Source: an uncultured Paracoccaceae bacterium
Lineage (GTDB): Bacteria > Pseudomonadota > Alphaproteobacteria > Rhodobacterales > Rhodobacteraceae
Length of the DNA stretch: 64,000 nt
NCBI GenBank assembly: GCA_947500135.1
Contig: CANMQX010000002.1
Span: forward strand, 496,001 to 560,000
Direction: 5' to 3'
A program made the translations under genes and the position numbers. Under the pieces are notes generated by a model that had not been told where the DNA came from, searched no databases, and saw nothing but the letters and a program-made list of their open reading frames with translations. Below are positions 7,617 to 9,182 of the stretch, piece after piece (the first letter of the stretch is position 1; each line of letters opens with the position of its first letter).

Positions 7617-7778
7617 GCACCTGAAAACACGCGGTATTTCCGGGCAACGCGGACGCACAGTGCCTTAACAGCTTATCAATCACAGCACTGCAAAATCAGC
7701 TATGCGCGCTGTACCGGCATTCCAGCTTGCACTCCCCCCCTGCCCGCGCCAGCATGGCGGCAAAAGATCGAGGGGCCG

Positions 7779-8384
7779 ATGACCAATTTTGCCGTTCTGA
7801 CAGGCGATATCGTCAAATCATCGCAATTGCCGCAAGGCGGGCTGGACCGGATTTTTGCCAATCTGGCTGATGCGGCAGATCGTATTGGCGGCTGGCAAGG
7901 CAGCAGTGTTCACTTGACGCGCAATCGCGGTGATGGCTGGCAAATGGCCGTGGCGCCCGGTTTTGCTTTGCGGGCAGTCTTTGCCACCCGCGCCGCAGTC
8001 CGCATGGCCGATAAACGGTTCGACACAAGGGTGGCACTGGCACTTGGTGAAGGCGTGATCCCCGGCGACACATTGGCCGATGCGTCCGGCCCGGTCTTTA
8101 CCGCCTCGGGGCAAGCCTTGGAACATATGCCGCGCAAACGTCACATGGTGGTCGCAGGCAATGACGGGGTGCATACTGTGGCCCTGCGATTGGCCGAAGA
8201 GGTGATCAAACGCTGGACCGAAGCGCAGGCGGAGGTGGCACTACACGCCCTTGCGCCAGACACCCCGACCCAGGCCGCATTGGCCGAAACGCTGGATGTG
8301 ACTAAGCAAACCATTCAGGGGCATATTGACGCGGCAGGCGTGGACGCGCTCATTGAAACATGCGAGATTCTCGATGGTATGTAA
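7779..8384 (+). CDS. SatD-like protein with a C-terminal HTH-like segment
   Basis: N-terminus TGDIVKSSQLP and internal RGDGWQ pattern typical of SatD-like proteins; C-term QAALAETLDVTKQTIQGHIDAAGVDALIE resembles a helix-turn-helix. Confidence 0.65.
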   Translation: MTNFAVLTGDIVKSSQLPQGGLDRIFANLADAADRIGGWQGSSVHLTRNRGDGWQMAVAPGFALRAVFATRAAVRMADKRFDTRVALALGEGVIPGDTLADASGPVFTASGQALEHMPRKRHMVVAGNDGVHTVALRLAEEVIKRWTEAQAEVALHALAPDTPTQAALAETLDVTKQTIQGHIDAAGVDALIETCEILDGM

Positions 8385-8387
8385 AAG

Positions 8388-8463
8388 ACAGCCATATTCG
8401 GCTGTTTTTGTAAATAACAGCCACATTAGACTGTCTTTACAAAAAACAGCCATATCAGGCTGT
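8388..8463. repeat. three 18-bp imperfect palindromes at 29-bp period
   Basis: ACAGCCATATTCGGCTGT (8388), ACAGCCACATTAGACTGT (8417), ACAGCCATATCAGGCTGT (8446). Confidence 0.9.
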
Positions 8464-8486
8464 CAAAAGCGGATGAAGGAGTAGCA

Positions 8487-9182
8487 ATGCTAACCACCGC
8501 ACTCGCCCTGATACTGGCCCATCTGCTTGCCGATTATCCGTTTCAAAACAAATGGATCATCGCCAACAAGAAACGGCCCGAGGCGATGGCAGCCCATATC
8601 GGTGTCGTCTTCCTGTTCACGCTCATCGCGCTACGCGGTGAATTGGTGCCAGCCCTGACAATCGCTGCGATCCACCTGATCATCGATCTGATCAAGACGC
8701 ATCTGGCCCCCGAACGGCTCTGGGCTTATCTGGCTGATCAACTGGCACATTTTCTTACAATTGCAGGGGTTTTGTGGTTCTGGCCAGAACTCTCCACGCT
8801 CTGGCCAGAGGCAACGATCTGGACGCAATATATGCTGACACTCAGCGCTGGGCTGATCCTTTGCGTCATGGCGGGCGGACCAGCGATCGGGCTTTTGATG
8901 GCCGATTTTGATGAAATCCAGCATGTTGGCCTGCCCGCCGCAGGGCGGATGATCGGGCTGCTGGAACGGGCGTTGATCTATCTGATGGTGCTGGCAGGTC
9001 AGCCTGCTGGGATCGGTTTTCTGATCGCCGCAAAATCCATCCTGCGGTTCGACACGGTGTCAAAGGACCAGCGGGCCAGCGAATACGTGATCATCGGGAC
9101 ACTGGCATCGTTCGGCTGGGCGCTGCTGGTCAGCTTTGCGACAGTTTCACTCATCACAATTGCCGGTATCGACCCCACCTAA
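8487..9182 (+). CDS. DUF3307 domain-containing membrane protein
   Basis: N-term LILAHLLADYPFQNKWIIANKK, typical of DUF3307; multiple TM helices. Confidence 0.75.
   Translation: MLTTALALILAHLLADYPFQNKWIIANKKRPEAMAAHIGVVFLFTLIALRGELVPALTIAAIHLIIDLIKTHLAPERLWAYLADQLAHFLTIAGVLWFWPELSTLWPEATIWTQYMLTLSAGLILCVMAGGPAIGLLMADFDEIQHVGLPAAGRMIGLLERALIYLMVLAGQPAGIGFLIAAKSILRFDTVSKDQRASEYVIIGTLASFGWALLVSFATVSLITIAGIDPT

Follow-up and report, generated by a model that had tools for sequence, protein, structure and literature searches.

The SatD-Like and DUF3307 Genes Enclose Three Phased Palindromes

In the window, by which we mean the whole stretch of 64,000 nucleotides analyzed, two small genes are separated by a gap filled with repeated palindromes, which raises the question of whether these form an operator and, if so, for which protein and which gene. 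The genome belongs to the Rhodobacteraceae, near Yoonia/Loktanella. The first gene (7779..8384, + strand) is an open reading frame for a SatD-like putative regulator of 201 aa with a cyclase-fold N-terminal domain and a C-terminal HTH; the annotation of SatD refers to "secretion and acid tolerance" but offers no mechanism. The second (8487..9182, + strand), preceded by an AAGGAG ribosome site that was recognized by sequence reading (8476-8481, + strand), encodes a multi-helix, membrane-type DUF3307 protein of 231 aa (PF11750, Pfam E 2.2e-14; 54 bits against a cut-off of 23), the putative target of regulation.

The gap contains three 18-bp palindromes at 8388, 8417, and 8446, 29 and 29 bp apart from start to start. 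The earlier note had reported these positions and the exact phasing, and sequence reading together with a repeat finder bore both out. Putative operator unit 1 (ACAGCCATATTCGGCTGT, 8388..8405) reads ACAGCC-ATATTC-GGCTGT, unit 2 (ACAGCCACATTAGACTGT, 8417..8434, 29 bp after unit 1) ACAGCC-ACATTA-GACTGT, and unit 3 (ACAGCCATATCAGGCTGT, 8446..8463, 29 bp after unit 2) ACAGCC-ATATCA-GGCTGT; none of them is assigned to a strand. The spacers between the units, TTTTGTAAATA and CTTTACAAAAA, have the sequences claimed before, but their proposed near-complementarity is not kept in relatives and is therefore incidental. The features that relatives conserve are the half-sites, the N6 center, and the period. 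With at most one mismatch allowed, the tandem pattern occurs only once in the 4.57-Mb genome, namely as the window array; a dispersed repeat was rejected on account of this uniqueness.

The Gene Pair and Phased Arrays Are Conserved in Rhodobacteraceae

Searching 61, 397, and 57 genomes yielded 108 SatD-like loci in Rhodobacteraceae, one per genome. Computed in this way, genetic linkage was nearly complete: DUF3307 adjoined the SatD-like gene in 107 of the 108 loci, and in 55 the two genes overlapped or abutted. Tandem palindromes were looked for in the gap and in the 260 bp that precede the SatD-like gene. Palindrome pairs scoring at least 20/24 were spaced by 29 bp in 60 loci, by 28 bp in 12, and by 30 bp in 14; within the range of 21 to 41 bp, any other spacing was seen in 0-1 of the 108 loci, and 20 shuffles gave no such pair. 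At a threshold of 18, arrays were present upstream in 81 loci, in the gap in 32, and in both places in 14, so that 99/108 loci carried an array, always with a period of 28-30 bp (shuffles, 0-1).

Among the 108 loci, arrays upstream of the SatD-like gene were commoner than gap arrays. In class A, defined by a SatD-like protein at least 71% identical to that of the window, arrays of 3-4 units were found in the gap only. Genomes with both an upstream and a gap array all shared GCAAG-type sites. Half-sites varied among species and included ACAGCC, ACAACC, GCAAGC, GCAAGT, TCAAGC, GCACCC, GCAAAT, GAAAGC, ACAGGT, and others. The earlier note had named homologous pairs lacking ACAGCC-N6-GGCTGT as a refutation of its proposal. 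Read literally, such pairs do exist; yet these homologues have arrays of other half-sites (GCAAGC, TCAAGC, GCACCC, and more) that match their own helix.

Recognition Helix Residues Covary With Half-Site Bases

An HTH-like segment had been proposed at the end of the SatD-like protein. In an AlphaFold2 model built from 11 sequences (pLDDT 92.1, pTM 0.90) two C-terminal helices, 165-172 and 176-186, are present, and by this model the HTH is real. The recognition helix (residues 176-186, KQTIQGHIDAA) is encoded at 8304..8336 on the + strand.

We calculated the mutual information of every protein column with each half-site base in 98 loci, without any prior choice of residues; three loci had been excluded for a wrong register, a frameshifted HTH, and overlapping hits. 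Over the whole protein, base 1 shared most information with residue 176 (z 29), base 2 with 177 (z 12), base 4 with 178 (z 15), and base 5 with 181 (z 15), 182 coming close; all four residues belong to the predicted recognition helix. R176 paired with G1 in 68/69 loci, Q or K176 with A1 in 17/18, and P, A, or T176 with T1 in 10/10. Q177 was combined with C2 in 92/94 loci; where P, E, or A occupied this position, base 2 was another base and never C. T or S178 mostly went with G4 (14/18 loci) and A178 with A4 (65/71), and K181 paired with C5 in all 22 loci in which it occurred.

As a phylogenetic null we simulated base evolution 2000 times on a tree made from residues 1-150 only, thus excluding the HTH. 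The observed mutual information was exceeded in 0, 0, 0, and 1 of the 2000 simulations for the pairs of bases 1, 2, 4, and 5, respectively. Independent contrasts on well-supported branches showed almost no discordant pair, the pairs being too few for significance. Half-site extraction was mildly biased toward A as the third base and a pyrimidine as the sixth, and we therefore make no claim for either base. The covariation supports, in the absence of binding data, a four-position amino acid-base code by which the recognition helix of the SatD-like protein would read the half-site. A place among HTH regulators, for which the recognition helix must read an operator of its own, is thus supported by covariation beyond the phylogenetic null and not by direct binding. 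At one locus (L116) the SatD-like gene has a frameshift in its HTH region, and DUF3307 and the operators look intact; this is either a sequence error or a real mutation.

Similar Arrays Occur in Other Classes and in Haloarchaea

A SatD-like gene was located upstream of all seven full-length DUF3307 loci from other classes (L141-L147, taken as gammaproteobacterial), six of which had arrays at 28-29 bp. L146, with Q176, P177, S178, and K181, has the half-site ATAGCC, and ACAACC-type half-sites go with Q, Q, A, K in L166 and L167 and with K, Q, A, K in L164. Outside the family the code was mostly obeyed (L141-L144, L146, L147, L164, L166, L167, L170, L207, L209). The base-1 rule failed in Sphingomonas (L202, R176 but T) and in the haloarchaea (K176 but T), and no convincing array was found in L145 or in the Fusobacterium locus L205. 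The haloarchaeal satD genes have two TTCGCC units 29 bp apart upstream. Judged from sequence alone, the putative regulatory system is conserved far beyond the window genome, with similar arrays beside SatD-DUF3307 in Gammaproteobacteria, Sphingomonas, and haloarchaea.

Plasmid records containing SatD-DUF3307 came from Sphingomonas, Segatella, Haloplanus, Halorientalis, Fusobacterium, Vibrio, Salinivibrio, and Pseudoalteromonas. On the Sphingomonas insulae plasmid (NZ_CP048421.1, 69626-75342; L202) the pair directly adjoins a Pycsar-type locus made up of a cyclase, an E2-associated cysteine-rich protein, and a Pycsar effector. A phage origin was considered and rejected, as no SatD-like relative was confirmed in viral contigs and neither DUF3307 nor the archaeal SatD had a match in phages.

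The SatD-Like Protein Has a Cyclase Fold With a Degenerate Motif

The sensor-like N-terminal domain comprises about residues 1-125 (7779..8153, + strand). In a Foldseek search with the model, the Ma1120 adenylyl cyclase was matched with E 2.3e-5 (prob. 1.00), and the 36 PDB matches at E<=0.001 were class III cyclases nearly throughout, which assigns the modeled domain to the cyclase fold. An independent profile search aligned D10 and D52 with the metal-binding motif of Ma1120 (E 0.008). Both metal-binding Asp residues of a cyclase are present, each being kept in 107/108 homologues, and R48 is kept in 104 of 108. The transition-state Asn/Arg pair is not: position 108 is T, V, I, E, or F among the homologues (T108 in the window protein), and at position 112 half of them (54/108) have R, the window protein having Q there, although these two positions were assigned by motif and are approximate. 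The domain is, by inference, more likely to be a nucleotide-binding sensor than a working cyclase.

The name "SatD-like" used in the earlier note proved right as a statement of homology. An hhalign comparison (A1 against A7) with archaeal and gammaproteobacterial SatD homologues gave prob. 100 and E 7.5e-39 over the full length, HTH included, and the target alignment contains the haloarchaeal proteins L204 and L206, both bona fide members of PF16264 (E 8.5e-32 and 2.7e-32). Kinship with PF16264 rests on this full-length homology. The window protein itself had no PF16264 match at E<=1 and so does not reach the Pfam cut-off of 29 bits; matches at E<=0.1 were obtained for 4/15 of its relatives (best, 5.8e-7). 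A PF16264 search across the class gave no match, but its controls were equally silent, so that this negative carries no weight.

Upstream Arrays Cover Promoter-Like Elements

In upstream arrays the proximal unit begins a median of 27 bp before the ATG, its center comes closer to TATAAT than the centers of distal units do (p 4.6e-5), and the TTGC of the preceding half-site sits at the -35 position. In many of these loci the transcript is likely, by inference, to be leaderless, with its start near the ATG. Protein bound to the array would mask the -10-like and the -35-like element alike, and repression is therefore the preferred sign of control. As upstream arrays outnumber gap arrays, the SatD-like protein would usually be an autoregulator, an inference from covariation for which binding data are lacking.

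The proximal unit of gap arrays showed no -10 enrichment, and repression at the window array is thus less direct than at upstream arrays. In the window an operator-free, promoter-like block lies upstream of the SatD-like gene (7726..7755, + strand; CTTGCAC ... CAGCAT, that is TTGCAC-N17-CAGCAT). It is conserved in 9 aligned class A sequences, and its role as a promoter is inferred. Since the class A SatD-like gene has this separate block and its array is confined to the gap, the array would serve DUF3307 in the window genome.

The Pair Occupies an Exchangeable Site in the suf Operon

The cassette has fixed borders, a sufT-like FeS_assembly_P gene on the left (PF01883; 7254..7616, + strand) and an A-type Fe-S carrier gene on the right (PF01521; 9234..9596, + strand), and 92/108 cassettes sit between these two. 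Among 14 cassette-free genomes of the same genus, nine had an empty site of 75-145 bp and five had another gene. As far as sequence comparison can tell, the junction is an exchangeable site inside the suf operon and the SatD-DUF3307 pair an exchangeable cassette. Within one genus, DUF3307 of class A and class B is 78-87% identical, the SatD-like proteins are only 36-41% identical, and the operators differ; regulator and operator therefore change together.

At five loci in other species of the genus (L180, L183, L184, L185, and L187) the junction is occupied by a glycerophosphodiester phosphodiesterase-like gene, so named by reading. In genome G724 (L186) the junction is empty, 145 bp long, and lacks both SatD-like and DUF3307 genes, but contains two 29-bp-spaced units, GCAAAG-gatttc-CTTTGC and GCAAGT-aaattt-GATCGC. 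This operator pair is a probable relic of a lost cassette.

Separated DUF3307 and SatD-Like Genes Show Altered Motifs

The AlphaFold2 model of DUF3307 was poor (pLDDT 51) and was left unused. The window protein (8487-9182) has three conserved His/Asp motifs, H12xxxD16, H63xxxD67, and D84QxxH88, and the pattern HxxxD, HxxxD, DQxxH suggests, by inference, a metal site in the membrane. Three loci at the sufT / Fe-S carrier junction (L150, L151, L153) have DUF3307 without a SatD-like gene and without an array, and in these the C-terminal motif KSxLRF...EYxIIGTLxSF is degraded. The sole SatD-like locus without DUF3307 (L113, minus strand, 1485-2106 of the reverse complement) carries D10T and D52Q, and its SatD-like gene is probably decaying. 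The loss of these Asp residues and the degraded DUF3307 proteins therefore tie both proteins to one function.

A Probable Local Regulator and Its Operator

We consider it very likely that the SatD-like protein has its operator in the array and controls transcription locally, within its own cassette, binding being inferred without binding or expression data. The earlier note had proposed the SatD-like protein as a possible regulator of DUF3307 that acts on the array with its C-terminal HTH, and this proposal gains support from the adjacency of the genes (107/108), the arrays (99/108), and a covariation beyond phylogenetic simulation. In the mechanism that we propose, the cyclase-fold domain, probably dimeric, would set two C-terminal HTHs on each palindrome, with residue 176 reading base 1, 177 base 2, 178 base 4, and 181 base 5 of the half-site; this dimer geometry is inferred. 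Two to four dimers would lie side by side at the fixed period of 28-30 bp. In most relatives the array would cover the SatD-like promoter, with the -10-like element in the center of the proximal unit and the TTGC -35-like element in the preceding half-site, and binding should block RNA polymerase. In the window lineage, where the array stands only before DUF3307 and the SatD-like gene has a separate promoter-like block, DUF3307 would be the regulated gene. A nucleotide or metal-nucleotide in the degenerate cyclase pocket (D10, D52, R48) would most likely release or trigger the regulator; the ligand is likewise inferred.

The same palindromes might act as RNA, forming tandem hairpins that serve as terminators, attenuators, or mRNA stabilizers and so set the level of DUF3307. 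A unit can fold into a 6-bp stem with a U-rich stretch behind it, shuffled sequences fold less well than the region (z -3.9 on the + strand, -8.1 on the - strand), and the array holds two predicted terminator-like sites, each on the minus strand. These z-scores do not discriminate, however, as any palindrome folds well, and a terminator or RNA leader should preserve its stems, whereas 233/312 units have stem-breaking mismatches in the arms. Moreover, most homologous arrays overlie a promoter-like element in front of the SatD-like gene and are probably untranscribed, no Rfam family came near its gathering score, and the half-site sequence tracks the HTH residues. A terminator or attenuator as the main function was rejected, and we regard an RNA role as very improbable. 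Even less credible is that another host transcription factor binds the array and the SatD-like protein is a mere neighbor. Binding by the SatD-like protein is indeed unmeasured, but its helix residues covary with the operator at four positions, the array, at up to one mismatch, is confined to one locus in its own genome, and in class B of the same genus both the SatD-like protein and the operator are different.

An operator of the SatD-like protein need not be a site of repression. The protein could be an activator, or a cooperative switch without promoter occlusion, and the array before DUF3307 might recruit polymerase; class A fits this insofar as the proximal unit of its array, upstream of DUF3307, lacks a clear -10, which would be in keeping with an activator site. 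The -10-like element inside the proximal unit of upstream arrays is, however, typical of repression. In Streptococcus pyogenes, satD is reported to be accessory (178/249 genomes) yet essential in every strain tested (PMC11323703), which fits a repressor better than an activator. Such a gene would be expected of a repressor of a harmful neighbor, although DUF3307 has not been shown to be that neighbor in streptococci. We hold activation to be possible but unlikely, and repression, itself inferred, is preferred over it with some, not overwhelming, confidence.

Implications and Comparison With Known Systems

With the SatD-like protein as local regulator, SatD-family proteins gain a concrete, if inferred, activity, sequence-specific DNA binding, and a cognate operator of unusual fixed architecture. 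The four-position code is testable by single substitutions. A class III cyclase fold without the catalytic Asn would be a new type of sensor domain for prokaryotic transcription factors, and a simple reading is offered for the published puzzle of an accessory gene that is essential where present. The predominance of upstream arrays, the cyclase-fold N-terminus, the exchangeable suf-operon cassette, and the archaeal occurrence go beyond the earlier note.

A more speculative idea, which we rate as rather doubtful, is that SatD-DUF3307 is a mobile, cross-domain nucleotide-sensing module, in which a pseudo-cyclase repressor senses a change in nucleotides, whether cellular or brought about by phage, and then releases DUF3307 from repression as a membrane effector that is harmful when unregulated. 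Both this harm and the function of DUF3307 are inferred. If the idea were true, satD would be accessory but indispensable to any genome that carries the effector, and the fast turnover of regulator and operator would reflect selection against cross-talk between cassettes. Our literature search found no paper on the function of DUF3307 and none that gives SatD a fold, an operator, or a role as DNA-binding regulator; SatD appeared only in annotation or screening contexts, and SatD with DUF3307 as a regulatory pair was not found.

Among known families, the window protein resembles SatD (PF16264) in its full-length profile match including the HTH, in its operon with DUF3307, and in the 29-bp arrays upstream of the archaeal genes, but unlike that family it falls below the Pfam model. 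With class III cyclases (Ma1120, Rv1900c, and, lower in the list, the Pycsar cyclase 7r65) it has in common the fold and both metal Asp positions; it differs in that the Asn equivalent is variable, the Arg is kept in only half of the homologues, and an HTH is fused, so that it is probably a nucleotide sensor and not an ordinary cyclase. Pycsar and Panoptes defense pairs likewise place a cyclase- or palm-fold protein beside a membrane protein, and the Sphingomonas plasmid cassette adjoins a Pycsar locus. SatD-DUF3307 differs from them by its degenerate cyclase motif, its HTH and operator array, and the absence of a PADLOC match, no family of the PADLOC defense models being hit at E<=0.1.

Autoregulating antitoxin and phage-type repressors with operator arrays differ from SatD-DUF3307, which has a cyclase-fold sensor, arrays of two to four palindromes at 28-30 bp, and as partner a 230-aa membrane-type protein that is not known to be toxic. 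That the first gene is a DNA-binding autoregulator, as in toxin-antitoxin systems, is supported by inference from covariation, with upstream arrays in 81/108 loci; in the window lineage the array lies in the gap alone. For a toxic second product held in check by the first there are only indirect hints, namely the essential but accessory satD of S. pyogenes and the degraded C-terminal motif of DUF3307 proteins that lack a SatD-like partner. The two are alike in a small, operon-leading protein that binds DNA (inferred here), in an operator over its own promoter and a downstream partner, and also in a patchily distributed cassette whose specificity changes fast.
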